A DNA stretch of 33,959 bases from an uncultured Pseudomonadota bacterium (GTDB lineage Bacteria; Pseudomonadota; Gammaproteobacteria; Steroidobacterales; Steroidobacteraceae), in NCBI GenBank assembly GCA_902826225.1, contig CADEED010000032.1:1381-35339 (forward strand), read 5' to 3'. The position numbers were made by a program, and so were the translations under genes. Positions within the stretch are counted from its first letter, which is position 1; every line of letters begins with the position of its first letter. Below are positions 2,264 to 28,439 of the stretch, piece by piece. The notes below the pieces were generated by a model. It did no database searches and was not told where the DNA came from. It saw only the letters and a list, made by a program, of their open reading frames with translations.

Positions 2264-2590
2264 CTACTTGCGAGCGGGAATCGTGGCAAGAAGATCCACT
2301 TCGAAGCGCATCATCTTGTCGGCGATCCGCTGCGGGTCGATATGGTAGCGGCCGTCGTCGAGCGCGCGGCGCACTGCGTCGACGCGACTCTCGTTCACCA
2401 CCGGCAGCGTGCCGATATGAGCCTCGAGCGCGGCCAGGGTGCGCGCCGTATCGGAAACGTCGATGTTGGAAGCAGCGCCGGTGCTCTCGGTCTTGCGGCC
2501 ATCCGAGGTGGCATCGCGGGTGCGCGTTACGGGTCCGCCAGCGCCGACCTGCACCGGGCGTCCGTCAATTCCACTGATCTTGTTCGCCAT
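2264..2590 (-). CDS. flgM: FlgM, anti-sigma-28 factor
   Basis: The protein has 108 residues and the FlgM layout: a short start MANKISGIDGRPVQ, a flexible Ser/Thr/Gly-rich region to about residue 40, then the helical sigma-binding half. The latter contains VSDTARTLAALEAHI, VVNESRVDAVRRALDDGRYHID and RIADKMMRFE, the family hallmark. FlgM holds FliA (sigma-28) inactive in the cytoplasm until the hook is complete, and is then secreted through the flagellar export apparatus. A sigma-28 promoter lies directly upstream (2623-2649), so the gene is under the factor its product inhibits, the usual feedback loop. It is also downstream of flgA, from which read-through is possible. GGAG about 9 nt before ATG 2590 supports the start. 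Confidence 0.95.
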   Translation of the reverse strand: MANKISGIDGRPVQVGAGGPVTRTRDATSDGRKTESTGAASNIDVSDTARTLAALEAHIGTLPVVNESRVDAVRRALDDGRYHIDPQRIADKMMRFEVDLLATIPARK

Positions 2591-2712: not shown

Positions 2713-3444
2713 TCAGGGATTCACTCGCACCACCCCTGCGCTTTCGGCCACACCCTCGACGACCTTGAGCGAAAGCAGGTTCCGTACCCGCACTCGCTGG
2801 CTCGTGGCCGCATTGGCCAAAGCCACTCCCGACGCCCGGACTTCGAGTCCCCCGGCGGTTGCGGCCAGGGTCACACTCTGACCACGATAGATGATGTATG
2901 CGGCGTCGAGGGCGTCGGCGGTGAGTACGACGCCTGCGGGTATGGCCCGCCGGGTGAGGCGCCCGGCAAGATCCGCGACCTGCGAGACGTAAGGCGAAGC
3001 CAGACCGGGCAAAACCCGCGACTCCACCTGCACGTCGGCGGCGGTGATTGCCGCGCCGCGCGCGACGGCCCGGCGCATCACCAACACTTCACTTCGTCGA
3101 TGGATCTCCACTGGAACGTTCAGATTCCAGAACGCCCCTGCCGTGCAGGAGACGCGGACCAGCAGGCGAGACTGTGTACCCCGCGGTGCGGCGGCGCGCG
3201 CGGTGAGCGGGGTGGGACAGGCGGTGAGTCGCAGTCGCGGATCGAGGTCCGCGGCCTCGAACGTCACGCCGGCGATTCCGGCGCCGACTTCTCGCGCCAC
3301 GGCCGCAACGGCGTCGCGACGTATCGCGGACAGGGACTGCACCCCGCCAACGCTCTCCTGTGCGCCCGCCGCAACCGACGCCAGCAGCAGCACGGCCGTG
3401 GTCCACCGCGCGACGGAAGCGGGAGTCGAAAAATTGACTGGCAT
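2713..3444 (-). CDS. flgA: FlgA, P-ring assembly chaperone
   Basis: This periplasmic protein has 243 residues. An N-terminal signal peptide (hydrophobic AVLLLASVAAGA, cleavage near residue 28) is followed by the FlgA N-terminal domain with two cysteines (C76 and C100) that probably form a disulfide, and by a C-terminal SAF domain. The SAF part shows the family patterns VLVMRRAVARGAAITAADV, a Val-Leu-Pro-Gly segment, and the end GQSVTLAATAGGLEVRASGVAL. FlgA assists assembly of FlgI into the P ring around the rod. The gene is first in flgA-flgM-flgN and divergent from flgB. No Shine-Dalgarno precedes ATG 3444, and the predicted sigma-54 start site falls one base upstream of it, so the mRNA may be leaderless. 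The n-region of the signal is weakly charged, but no better in-frame start is available. Confidence 0.92.
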   Translation of the reverse strand: MPVNFSTPASVARWTTAVLLLASVAAGAQESVGGVQSLSAIRRDAVAAVAREVGAGIAGVTFEAADLDPRLRLTACPTPLTARAAAPRGTQSRLLVRVSCTAGAFWNLNVPVEIHRRSEVLVMRRAVARGAAITAADVQVESRVLPGLASPYVSQVADLAGRLTRRAIPAGVVLTADALDAAYIIYRGQSVTLAATAGGLEVRASGVALANAATSQRVRVRNLLSLKVVEGVAESAGVVRVNP

Positions 3445-3455
3445 GCGAAGTAGTC

Positions 3456-3471
3456 AGCAAGGGACATGCCA
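3456..3471 (-). promoter_or_regulatory. Sigma-54 promoter of flgA
   Basis: On the minus strand TGGCATG-TCCC-TTGCT has the invariant GG and GC elements 10 nt apart (consensus TGGCACG-N4-TTGCW). The -12 C is at 3457, placing the start site near 3445, directly at the flgA ATG (3444). Confidence 0.82.
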
Positions 3472-3555
3472 GCGCGCGCGCTGCTAAAGAAAAGAATCCC
3501 GAGGCCGTTACGCCGCTACCCGCAGATCACTCCGCTGCCGCTGCAAACGCTGGCC

Positions 3556-3575
3556 GCGACGCGGCAACGCGTCGC
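3556..3575. promoter_or_regulatory. Perfect palindrome midway between the flgA and flgB promoters, candidate activator site
   Basis: GCGACGCG-GCAA-CGCGTCGC is an uninterrupted 8-bp inverted repeat with a 4-nt centre at about 3565. The two divergent sigma-54 promoters at 3456-3471 and 3653-3668 have their midpoint at about 3562. Bacterial enhancer-binding proteins usually bind 80-150 bp upstream of -24, so one site here could serve both. It lies outside both transcripts, so an RNA hairpin role is unlikely. Which protein binds is not shown by the sequence. Confidence 0.5.
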
Positions 3576-3652
3576 CACCCCGGCGTGCTCCGCGTCGCAG
3601 GGTATTCGATCGCTTTCAATCCCAACGCCGCCCGCCGTGCGAAAAGGTGTCG

Positions 3653-3668
3653 TGGCACGTCGCTTGCT
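3653..3668 (+). promoter_or_regulatory. Sigma-54 promoter of the flgB operon
   Basis: TGGCACG-TCGC-TTGCT is an exact match to the -24/-12 consensus (GG 3654-3655, GC 3666-3667). The predicted start is near 3679, leaving a 43-nt leader that contains AGGAG at 3711-3715 before flgB. Confidence 0.93.
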
Positions 3669-3721: not shown

Positions 3722-4132
3722 ATGCCCCTGAACCTGGATCAGTACGTGAGCGTGCATGCCGCGGCACTCGACGTGCGCGCGCGCCGCGGTGAACTGATCG
3801 CCAACAACCTCGCCAACGCGGACACGCCGGGATACCAGGCGCGTGACATCGACTTTCGGCAGGCCATGGCGCGCGCGGCGGGTGAGCGGACCACGGGTGT
3901 CACGATCACCACGACGCGGCCGGCGCACATCGGTGGCGCGGGCTCGGCCGACGCGGCAACGAATCCGGACCTCAAGTACCGCACGCCGCTCGCCCCGGCG
4001 CTCGATGGCAACACCGTCGACGCACAGATCGAGCAGGCCTCGTTCGCGGAAAACGCCGTTCGCTACCAGGCGACGCTGACTTTCCTCAATTCCAAGTTTC
4101 GAGGGTTGCTCACCGCGATCCTCGGTGGCTAA
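3722..4132 (+). CDS. flgB: FlgB, proximal rod protein
   Basis: This 136-residue protein has the usual FlgB length. The N-terminal rod/hook signature LIANNLANADTPGYQARDI appears at about residues 22-40, and the C-terminal helix (VRYQATLTFLNSKFRGLLTAI) supplies the other half of the coiled-coil D0 region. FlgB is exported by the flagellar type III system and polymerises as part of the proximal rod across the periplasm. Its start has a strong AGGAG six bases upstream. It is the first gene of the long rod-hook-ring operon and is driven by the sigma-54 promoter at 3653. Confidence 0.96.
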   Translation: MPLNLDQYVSVHAAALDVRARRGELIANNLANADTPGYQARDIDFRQAMARAAGERTTGVTITTTRPAHIGGAGSADAATNPDLKYRTPLAPALDGNTVDAQIEQASFAENAVRYQATLTFLNSKFRGLLTAILGG

Positions 4133-18647: not shown

Positions 18648-18659
18648 ACTTCCCGCCGC

Positions 18660-19226
18660 GTGTACGACGGCAAAGACACCATCGTGATATTCGACAAGCT
18701 GGCCTACGAAGACCTGCTGCCGGTGCGCTGGCGTCCGCTGGCGCAGCCGGTGGACGACGTGACCGCCGCGCACTTCGCGGATCGGAACCTGCGGGTGCTC
18801 CAGGCCTGCGATGCGCTCGAAGAACACGGGCAGCTCGACAAGGCCGACGATGAGTCCCCGCATTCGGCCGATCTGCGGCGGCTCGACTTCAAACTGAACC
18901 TGCTGCTGGACATCTGCGGGCAACTCATGGCCGCGAGCCAGCCCCGGCTGCATCCCACCACGATCCGACTGAATGCGATGGGTGCGATTTTCTCTTACGG
19001 CGAAAGCGTGCCCGAGGGATCTCACGGTGTCCTCGAAGTGATGCTGCGGAATGTCGTCGTACAGCCGCTCAATCTTCCGGCCCTGGCGGTCGCGGGCGCT
19101 CCGGCGGGACAGGTGCGCGTGAGTTTCTCCGCCCTCGGCGATGTCGTCGCGGATCACATCGAGAAGCTCGTGTTTCGCCGCCACCGGCGCAAGATTGCCG
19201 GCGCACGTGGTACTCGTCGCGCGTGA
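18660..19226 (+). CDS. PilZ-fold protein with a degenerate cyclic di-GMP motif
   Basis: The protein has 188 residues from GTG 18660; GTG 18684 (MIFDKLAYEDLLPVRW) is an alternative start. DKLAYEDLLPVRWRPL is followed by a long helical region (about residues 35-95) and a C-terminal beta domain with LHPTTIRLNAMGAIFSYGE and VRVSFSALGDVVADHIEKLVFRRHR in outline. The second element resembles the PilZ DxSxxG strand but reads LNAMG, and no RxxxR motif precedes it. This resembles the helical, non-canonical PilZ proteins found in xanthomonad flagellar clusters (XC6012 type), which do not bind cyclic di-GMP in the usual way. It probably acts in flagellar regulation or assembly, by position. It lies 12 nt after the FliT-like gene. 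Confidence 0.75.
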   Translation: MYDGKDTIVIFDKLAYEDLLPVRWRPLAQPVDDVTAAHFADRNLRVLQACDALEEHGQLDKADDESPHSADLRRLDFKLNLLLDICGQLMAASQPRLHPTTIRLNAMGAIFSYGESVPEGSHGVLEVMLRNVVVQPLNLPALAVAGAPAGQVRVSFSALGDVVADHIEKLVFRRHRRKIAGARGTRRA

Positions 19227-19421: not shown

Positions 19422-20594
19422 GTGCAGACGATCGAATGCATCAGTGCGCAGAGCGAAGGAGTGGCGCGCCGTGCAGAGATGAATCTGGCCACGAGTTCCA
19501 GGGTTGACGGAGTTCAGTTGCCGACGGGTGTCTCGCCCGCGATCACCGCCGTGAACCGGCTGATCGAACAGGTGGCGCCCTACGATTCCACGGTTCTCAT
19601 ACTAGGGGAATCCGGTACGGGCAAGGAGATCGCGGCGCGTGCGATTCACGCAGCCAGCGCGCGCCGCCAGCGTCCCTTCGTCGCCGTCAACTGCGGCGCC
19701 ATTCCCGCCGAGCTGCTCGAGAGCGAACTCTTCGGGCACGAGAAGGGCGCCTTTACCGGTGCCATCACCACTCGCAAGGGGCGGTTCGAGATCGCCGAGG
19801 GTGGAACCCTTTTCCTCGACGAGATCGGCGACATGAGTCTGCCGATGCAGGTGAAACTGCTGCGCGTTCTGCAGGAGCGCGTCTTTGAGCGCGTCGGCAG
19901 CAATGTCTCGAGCGAGTGCGACGTCCGCATCATCGCCGCGACCCATCGCAACCTCGAGGAGTCGATCATCCGCGGAACCTTCCGCGGCGACCTGTTCTAT
20001 CGCCTCAACGTTTTTCCCATCGAGATGCCCACGCTGAGCGAACGCATCGCGGACCTGCCGGTGTTGATCGAGGATTTCGTCGGGCTCGCGGTGTCCCGCG
20101 GCCGGCCGCGCCTGCAATTGAAGGATGAAACTCTCGATGCACTGGCCGGCTACTCGTGGCCGGGCAACATCCGCGAGCTGTCGAATCTCATCGAACGCCT
20201 GGCGATTCTCTGTCCCGAACGTCCCGTGGGCGTCGACGACCTGCCGGCGCGTTACCGTCCGGTGGACTGGACTGCGCCCCGGGCCGCGTTGACGACCACA
20301 TTGGAAATCCCGCAGTTGCTGGCGTCGATGTCGGCCGAGCACGCTATCGAAAGCGAGGAAGTCCTGCCGCCGTCCATGTGGATGGGTGAGCAGGATGCGA
20401 TCACGCGTCTGCCGGAACATGGAGTGGATCTTCGAGCTCATCTCATGGTCATCGAACGCAGCCTCATCAGCCAGGCGTTGCAGCGCTCGGGCGGCACGGT
20501 GGCGCACGCGGCGCGCCTGCTGTCGCTGCGCCGGACGACGCTGGTGGAAAAGTTGCGCAAGCTCGGCATGGCACAGGCCCACGAACCCGCCTGA
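19422..20594 (+). CDS. fleQ: FleQ-like sigma-54 activator without receiver domain
   Basis: The protein has 390 residues from GTG 19422, a start set by AAGGAG at 19411-19416. The AAA+ domain fills residues 35-275: Walker A GESGTGKE (62-69), the sigma-54 contact loop GAFTGA (109-114) and Walker [11 protein letters not shown] (128-137). A C-terminal Fis-type helix-turn-helix ends in [20 protein letters not shown]. Sequence through [23 protein letters not shown] and [14 protein letters not shown] is close to Pseudomonas FleQ, the polar flagellar master activator. However, the approximately 135-residue N-terminal FleQ domain is absent. The FleQ LFRS motif is replaced by VQLP, and Arg-Asn after Walker A reads Arg-Ala. 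It probably activates the four sigma-54 promoters here. Confidence 0.88.
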
Positions 20595-20652: not shown

Positions 20653-20675
20653 TGACACTCGTGTGAACGGTGTCA
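20653..20675. promoter_or_regulatory. Inverted repeat upstream of the fleR-like promoter, candidate activator site
   Basis: TGACAC (20653-20658) and GTGTCA (20670-20675) form a 6-bp inverted repeat with 11 nt between, centred about 35 bp upstream of the -24 element. This spacing suits a proximal FleQ-type site. The repeat is short and may be chance. Confidence 0.3.
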
Positions 20676-20714: not shown

Positions 20715-20773
20715 CTGCAATCGTTGGCCGCACTCGGCCAATCGAATCTGGGCCAAATGAAACTGAGGTTCTG

Positions 20774-21754
20774 ATGAGCACTGCACTCAATTTGAGCGAC
20801 GCGCTGGAACCCGTCGCAGTCGATGCCGCCTCGCAGCTGACGGTCGCGCTCGCGCGCCGGGTCGCCGCCACCGACTGCACGGTCCTCATCGTGGGAGAGT
20901 CCGGCACCGGAAAGGAAGTCCTCGCGCGCCTGATCCACCGCGCGAGCCCGCGCGCGGCGAACAATTTCGTCGCGGTCAACTGCGCGGCCATTCCCGAGAA
21001 CATGCTCGAAGCGATGCTGTTCGGCTACGAACGCGGGTCATTCACCGGTGCCACGGCTGCGCATGCCGGCAAGTTCGAGCAGGCCAACGAGGGAACACTG
21101 CTGCTCGACGAAATCACGGAGATGCCGCTCGCGCTTCAGGCCAAACTATTGCGCGTCTTGCAGGAACGCGAGGTCGAGCGCCTCGGCGGAACCGAGCCGC
21201 TGCCACTCGACGTGCGGGTCATCGCGACGACCAACCGGCTGCTGCGCTCAGAAGTGTCCGCGGGCCGCTTCCGTGAAGATCTCTACTACCGTCTCAACGT
21301 GTTTCCGCTGGCGCTGCCCCCGCTGCGCGAGCGCCGCGACGACATTCTGCCGCTCGCCGCGCATCTACTACAGCAGCGTGGCCGCCCGGGCCAGCGGATT
21401 CCGGCCCTGTCGGCCGACGTCGCGCATCTGCTGCTCACCTATGGCTGGCCCGGCAACGTGCGGGAGCTGGACAACCTGCTGCAGCGTGCGGTGGTGCTGA
21501 CCGAAGGCACGGTCATCGAACCCGAGCACATCCTTTTCGAGAATCCGCCGGCGCGTGCCGGCGGCGGCGAGAGCGCATCGCCCGTTCTGCACCAGACCAT
21601 GGAGCGGGCGGAGCGCGATGTGATTCTCGAGGCCCTGCGCGCCGCGCACGGCAGCCGGCGCGAGGTCGCGGAGAAGCTCGGCATCAGTCCGCGCACGCTC
21701 CGCTACAAGCTCGCCCGCATCCGCAACGCGGGAATCGATGTGCCAGCGGCCTGA
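20774..21754 (+). CDS. FleR/FlrC-like sigma-54 activator without receiver domain
   Basis: The protein has 326 residues from ATG 20774, with GAGG 5 nt upstream. An upstream in-frame ATG at 20663 lies before the promoter start and is excluded. The AAA+ domain has Walker A GESGTGKE (41-48), the sigma-54 loop as GSFTGA (88-93) and Walker [12 protein letters not shown]. The C-terminal Fis-type helix-turn-helix is [20 protein letters not shown]. It resembles FleR of Pseudomonas and FlrC of Vibrio in the core ([35 protein letters not shown]), but the response-regulator receiver domain is missing and no FleS/FlrB kinase gene is adjacent. It presumably activates mid-tier flagellar promoters without phosphorylation. 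It is followed after 13 nt by fliE in the same transcript. Confidence 0.88.
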
Positions 21755-28423: not shown

Positions 28424-28439
28424 TGGCACGCGCGTTGCA
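28424..28439 (+). promoter_or_regulatory. Sigma-54 promoter of the fliL-flhA operon
   Basis: TGGCACG-CGCG-TTGCA is a full match to the consensus (GG 28425-28426, GC 28437-28438). The predicted start is near 28450. A small inverted repeat, CGTGA-N6-TCACG, lies just upstream at 28399-28414. Confidence 0.93.

Follow-up and report, generated by a model that had tools for sequence, protein, structure and literature searches.

The stretch of DNA between flgA and flgB in this uncultured member of the Steroidobacteraceae is likely to be a two-tier control region, in which two divergent sigma-54 promoters each have an activator site of their own and in which the FleR-like activator, devoid of a receiver domain in the clade to which the window belongs, would be aided by CRP in that clade. 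In the reading that we favour, which is built from sequence comparison, flgA, and with it flgM, would be read from its own sigma-54 promoter, and a FleQ-like protein (the most likely candidate) would bind a box located just downstream of this promoter and overlapping the first flgA codons. The rod-hook operon, flgB, would be read from the opposite sigma-54 promoter, activated by a FleR-like protein bound to a palindrome about 83 bp upstream, on a fixed face of the helix. In the clade, where this activator would work without a receiver and without FleS, CRP at a site two helical turns nearer the promoter probably helps or gates this step. Which protein binds which site, as well as the gating by CRP, is what we infer from these comparisons. 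The features concerned, within the window (the whole stretch of 33,959 nucleotides analysed), are as follows.

2264–2590, minus strand: flgM (TIGR03824, 64.2 bits against a cut-off of 40.75)
2713–3444, minus strand: flgA (TIGR03170, 113.5 bits against a cut-off of 54.65)
3425–3438: FleQ-like box GTCG-N6-TGAC (7/8), within the first flgA codons, on the downstream side of the flgA promoter
3456–3471, minus strand: predicted flgA sigma-54 promoter (-24/-12), TGGCATGTCCCTTGCT, no mismatch, predicted +1 at about 3445
3485–3511, plus strand: candidate sigma-28 (FliA) promoter TAAAG-N14-GCCGTTAC, directed toward flgB, 10/13 by eye
3540–3557: possible second palindrome copy GCTGCAA-ACGC-TGGCCGC (12/14), upstream and two helical turns away, scored in the window
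3556–3575: perfect 8-bp inverted repeat (arms 3556–3563 and 3568–3575), overlapping the conserved palindrome 4 bp out of register
3561–3578: FleR-type palindrome GCGGCAA-CGCG-TCGCCAC, matching GCGGCAA-N4-TTGCCGC at 12/14, with 83.5 bp between its centre and the flgB -24 T
3584–3599: weak CRP-like site CGTGC-N6-TCGCA (7/10), its centre and that of the palindrome being 22 bp apart
3653–3668, plus strand: predicted flgB sigma-54 promoter, TGGCACGTCGCTTGCT, no mismatch, predicted +1 at about 3679
3722–4132, plus strand: flgB (TIGR01396, 116.4 bits against a cut-off of 59.05)
19479–20594, plus strand: FleQ-like sigma-54 activator, 371 aa, with AAA+, lid and HTH_8 domains only
20774–21754, plus strand: FleR/FlbD-like sigma-54 activator, 326 aa, with AAA+ and HTH_8 domains and no receiver domain

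Judged by match and conservation, the two sigma-54 promoters are real and are conserved in relatives. The sigma-54 promoter consensus is TGGCAYRNNNNTTGCW, and the GG-N10-GC elements that the initial annotation had placed on opposite strands at 3456–3471 and 3653–3668 both match it without a mismatch. Three perfect sites occur in the window and 12 in the source genome (3.99 Mb in 194 contigs, 94% complete), against one for the pattern read backwards. FlgB was found in 133 of 217 genomes of the family. Among 210 gathered loci, 145 carry a divergent pair of sigma-54 sites (125 after removal of redundancy), and the flgB-side site is perfect in 124 of these 125, which bears out the proposal of divergent sigma-54 promoters for flgA(-flgM) and flgB. 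Of the 65 loci without the pair, 37 are from Pseudomonas, where flgA is not adjacent to flgB. Among 80 named loci, the one most closely related is L031 (identical with L003), from a Steroidobacteraceae MAG; the others include further gammaproteobacterial MAGs and many Pseudomonas. The third perfect site of the window (28424–28439) is located where fliL is listed to start (28446); transcription from it is predicted to begin at about 28450, past the listed ATG, so that fliL probably begins at a later codon. We also considered a hairpin in the flgB leader formed by TTGCTCCTCGC and GCGAGGAGTAA, and rejected it, as the left arm is placed at the predicted transcription start or upstream of it.

The initial annotation had noted a perfect 8-bp inverted repeat no more than 4 bp away from the point midway between the two promoters, and taken it as one activator site serving both. 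The repeat is present, its centre (3565.5) lying 3.5 bp off the midpoint between the -24 T's. Repeats of this kind, perfect over 8 bp and with a spacer of at most 10, appeared in 10.5% of 2000 dinucleotide shuffles of 3472–3652; in 0.35% of the shuffles one lay at most 4 bp from the midpoint, a criterion chosen post hoc. Conservation in relatives, the check proposed at the time, speaks against it: in the three congeners compared with the window (L002, L003 and L006), the arms match in the same frame at 4/8, 3/8 and 1/8 positions. The repeat is probably a chance arrangement of bases, and we rejected it as a binding site on account of its frequency in shuffles and the poor match of its arms in congeners. 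The expectation of an activator-type palindrome near position 3565 survives in part: a conserved element does lie there, but at 3561–3578 and not as the repeat had been drawn.

This element, GCGGCAA-N4-TTGCCGC, reaches 12/14 or more in 101 of the 125 nonredundant loci and stays below this in 24, compared with 0.88% of 1250 shuffles. Spacers of 0–3 and 5–10 gave at most 11 of 125 loci each, far fewer than spacer 4. As the consensus was drawn from the same kind of sequences that were later counted, weight is placed on the comparisons with shuffles, with other spacers, with helical phase and with unlinked controls. In the 117 loci scoring at least 11/14 (L001 being scored at a tied palindrome site, 104 bp), the distance from the palindrome centre to the flgB -24 T has a median of 83 bp (sd 18.8), and that to the flgA -24 T one of 99 bp (sd 67.1). 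The distances to flgB peak at 71–72, 82–84 and 91–95 bp. At a period of 10.5 bp, the Rayleigh R for 101 loci is 0.68 for flgB and 0.22 for flgA, and it is still 0.52 for flgB without the 81–85 cluster (52 loci); the loci share ancestry, so that p values, those of this helical-phase test included, come out too small.

The tie to flgB holds where the two genes are apart. In 50 unlinked control loci (35 from Pseudomonas), the palindrome, usually in the form GCGGAA-N5-TTGCCGC, lies 55–110 bp from the flgB promoter in 39. None of the 37 flgA sigma-54 sites scored in these controls has a palindrome above 10/14 upstream; the remaining controls comprise three without a flgA sigma-54 site and ten without a usable flgA match. 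A 12/14 palindrome within 200 bp distinguishes the flgA/flgB pair from the other ten perfect sigma-54 sites in the genome, which score at most 10/14. With at most one mismatch, CGGCAA-N4-TTGCCG shows no genome-wide enrichment in three of the four genomes of the genus (42 against 44 for the backward control in the genome itself, 36 against 36 and 75 against 68 in two others). G002 alone is enriched, sixfold (54 against 9). The half-sites of L002 and L003 fit a 1-bp spacer better than one of four (in L003, GCGGCAA-T-TTGCCGC), possibly a switch of spacing within the genus. A conserved palindrome at a fixed helical phase to the rod-hook promoter, the trait of a class III enhancer, is thus found across the loci and at 12/14 in the window. 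The palindrome is best read, from its sequence context, as the FleR-type enhancer of flgB. The idea of one midpoint site for both promoters was abandoned: the palindrome is within 4 bp of the midpoint in only 12 of 117 loci, and its spacing and phase, like the unlinked loci, tie it to flgB.

On the flgA side, a GTCA-N6-TGAC box occurs downstream of both promoters in relatives, with spacer 6 the strongest. It scores at least 7/8 below flgA in 21 of 125 loci (0.8% of shuffles) and below flgB in 22 of 124 (1.6% of shuffles). At flgA the box is 8/8 in the congeners L002 and L003; the flgB-side box of the window scores 5/8 only. A 2002 study by Jyot reportedly placed FleQ sites downstream of promoters. 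Such sites in Pseudomonas, and FleQ binding near promoters without looping, are described in work cited in the available part of PMC6120874, which also gives the FleQ consensus as GTCaNTAAAtTGAC and considers FleQ motifs unreliable. In L258, another perfect genomic sigma-54 promoter is preceded by two FleQ-like boxes of 7/8.

In the window, flgA would be transcribed almost without a leader, its ATG lying 1 nt from the predicted transcription start (27 nt from the -24 T). A FlgA frame was detected in 100 of the 125 loci; in 61 of these the first in-frame ATG lies 26–32 nt from the -24 T (the predicted +1 being at 26), i.e. with a leader of 0–6 nt. Within the genus (the window, L002, L003 and L006) the start codon is 0–1 nt from the predicted sigma-54 start, and in the distant relatives L025 and L027 the leader is longer and includes a Shine-Dalgarno-like stretch. 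The control region also carries an element of FliA type, for which the consensus is TCAAG-N14-GCCGATAA. This consensus scores at least 11/13 toward flgB in 30 of 125 loci, with other spacers giving at most three loci and the opposite strand at most one.

Both candidate activators are encoded in the window, and directly upstream of them lies a gene for tPilZ, an atypical c-di-GMP receptor (18648–19226). The FleQ-like protein also has no N-terminal domain, the domain search having reported no N-terminal FleQ domain in it; it presumably works like FleQ. The FleR-like protein fits the FlbD model best, with a score below the FlbD cut-off. Its gene has a further in-frame GTG at 20663, and some searches used a query starting at 20765, three codons before the ATG at 20774. 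No Response_reg domain (PF00072) and no match to our receiver model were found in it. Across 94 fleR loci (83 with a usable flgB region, 82 in the tree), a receiver was found in 28 and was absent from 66. The receiver model was trained on five of the 28 matches, and Pfam agreed with the calls in all seven loci checked (three with a receiver and four without, the window included), two of which had trained the model.

Absence of the receiver goes together with absence of the kinase. Upstream of fleR, both a kinase H-box and a G-box motif occur in 26 of the 28 loci with a receiver and in none of the 66 without one; three of the latter show a G-box-like match alone. As the upstream sequence is short at some loci (about 0.35–0.9 kb, e.g. 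L313, L266 and L263), the absence of the kinase there rests on searches with a FleS query (from G047) in the genomes covered. In all 9 receiver-bearing genomes searched, this query gave E values of 1.2e-60 or lower. FleS is missing in all 15 receiver-less genomes searched, where the best E values were only 6.4e-19 to 1.1e-25; among these is the genome of the window, 94% complete, with a best match at an E value of 7.6e-23. With neither FleS nor a receiver, the FleR-like protein would not be switchable by phosphorylation of a receiver domain. In the FleR tree, a single clade (SH-aLRT 99) unites the 53 receiver-less members of the family, and G057 and G063 branch separately; the tree has two receiver changes in total, and its starred branches force one. 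In the genus coded g23 (L314–L320), G161, G162, G164, G165 and G166 have a receiver-bearing FleR with kinase motifs upstream, and G167 and G169 are receiver-less, a mixture that suggests exchange of the regulator block or a mixed genus.

The CRP site consensus is TGTGA-N6-TCACA, and between palindrome and promoter it scores at least 8/10 in 48 of 101 loci, against 1.3% of shuffles. Spacer 6 is the strongest (spacers 4 and 8 gave 10 and 12 loci), 38 of the 48 sites lie 20–25 bp from the palindrome centre, and distances to the promoter fall near 41, 51, 61 and 72 bp. Of the 56 receiver-less genomes, 32 have a site of at least 8/10 at 18–26 bp from the palindrome and 40 one of at least 7/10; none of the 27 receiver-bearing genomes has either. 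When the whole 150 bp is considered, at least 8/10 is reached in 36 of the 56 and 5 of the 27, respectively. Eight receiver-less genomes have their site (7–8/10) at 41–48 bp instead. A further eight of the 56 have no 7/10 site at either preferred distance; these include G057, G063 and G070, which lie outside the clade with no receiver match. G057 is the cleaner counter-example, since fleR of G063 and G070 contains an in-frame stop. Of the 50 unlinked controls, six score exactly 7/10 at 18–26 bp and none 8.

The genome encodes a CRP orthologue (311.5 bits against a cut-off of 266); compared with solved structures, it resembles E. coli CRP and Vfr more than the CLP-type 3iwz. As a replacement input, CRP bound two helical turns from the palindrome is plausible, and we presume a link between receiver loss and the CRP-like site. 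Since both fall in one clade, their association counts as a single event, and an independent-pairs test found one pair, without power. The bolder scenario, in which the clade dismantled the FleS–FleR checkpoint, gained a CRP site at two helical turns from the palindrome and now gates entry into rod-hook assembly by cAMP-CRP instead of a two-component signal, would fit these sequences but is in our opinion rather unlikely.

Other explanations of these sites deserve consideration. As sigma-54 activators can act from afar and whichever way round their site lies, a single FleR-type complex on the palindrome could serve both promoters by looping either way; the palindrome also lies between them, its median distance to the flgA -24 T being 99 bp. 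We find this improbable, given that the palindrome keeps neither a fixed spacing nor a clear phase to flgA, that it is found at none of the unlinked flgA promoters scored, that flgA has a FleQ-like box of its own, and that in Pseudomonas flgA and flgB belong to different tiers, class II and class III under FleR, respectively (PMC8036289, from the portion available). Conversely, the FleQ-like protein alone might drive both promoters through downstream boxes, with the palindrome binding another factor, e.g. a repressor. The spacer-6 boxes below both promoters in relatives would agree with this, as would FleQ ChIP peaks that, in the available text of PMC6120874, cover flgA and flgBCDE alike in two pseudomonads. 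Such a scheme appears very improbable in view of the poor flgB-side box of the window, the activator-like helical phasing of the palindrome to flgB, and the recognition of the flgBCDE promoter by FleR (PMC8335546, as far as its accessible part reports).

It is possible, though less likely than not, that the CRP-like site is a sequence habit of the clade without a role, or that it binds another regulator. One clade shares the site and the loss of the receiver, some receiver-less genomes lack it at the preferred distances, five receiver-bearing genomes have an 8/10 match elsewhere in 150 bp, and the window's copy reaches only 7/10, those of clade members scoring up to 10/10. The copies of the window are generally weaker than those of the family (palindrome 12/14, CRP-like site 7/10, FliA-like element 10/13). 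Against a mere habit stand the preference for spacer 6, the rarity in shuffles, the preferred distances to palindrome and promoter, the eight further genomes with a site at 41–48 bp and the CRP orthologue in the genome. We retain the two-tier region with a CRP-aided FleR-like activator as the likely arrangement.

E. coli has the same divergent gene pair around one intergenic control region, flgAMN/flgB, under FlhDC; unlike that of the window, this region is not known to use sigma-54 and has one activator. FlbD and its ftr motif form an alphaproteobacterial system, and the Caulobacter ftr sequence presumably resembles the flgB palindrome. Caulobacter FlbD is a sigma-54 activator working from ftr motifs, according to the available part of PMC3930126. 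The region may also be likened to the FleQ–FleSR cascade of Pseudomonas, with sigma-54 promoters for flgA and flgB and a FleR-type activator for flgB; in Pseudomonas loci the GCGGAA-N5-TTGCCGC palindrome lies mostly 70–74 bp from flgB. In contrast to Pseudomonas, flgA and flgB are divergent neighbours in the window, its FleR is without a receiver, FleS is missing, and a CRP-like site has been added in the clade. Among the open-licence matches listed, in the parts of these sources available, we found no report of a CRP site in a flgB enhancer, of the CGGCAA-N4-TTGCCG motif for FleR or of a leaderless flgA.

A two-component checkpoint that postpones expression of the rod and hook genes until completion of the base is described as a general theme in polar flagellates, and Xanthomonas is reported there as a polar flagellate without a flagellar two-component system (PMC7064773, from its accessible portion). 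Xanthomonas is thus a precedent for an absent kinase checkpoint, the likeness being in the absence of the kinase. The palindrome, with its spacer and phasing, provides a usable motif for FleR-type sites. In a clade in which the enhancer has been kept while kinase and receiver are gone, the purpose of the checkpoint would become directly testable, and the CRP-like site is a candidate replacement input for the lost two-component signal.
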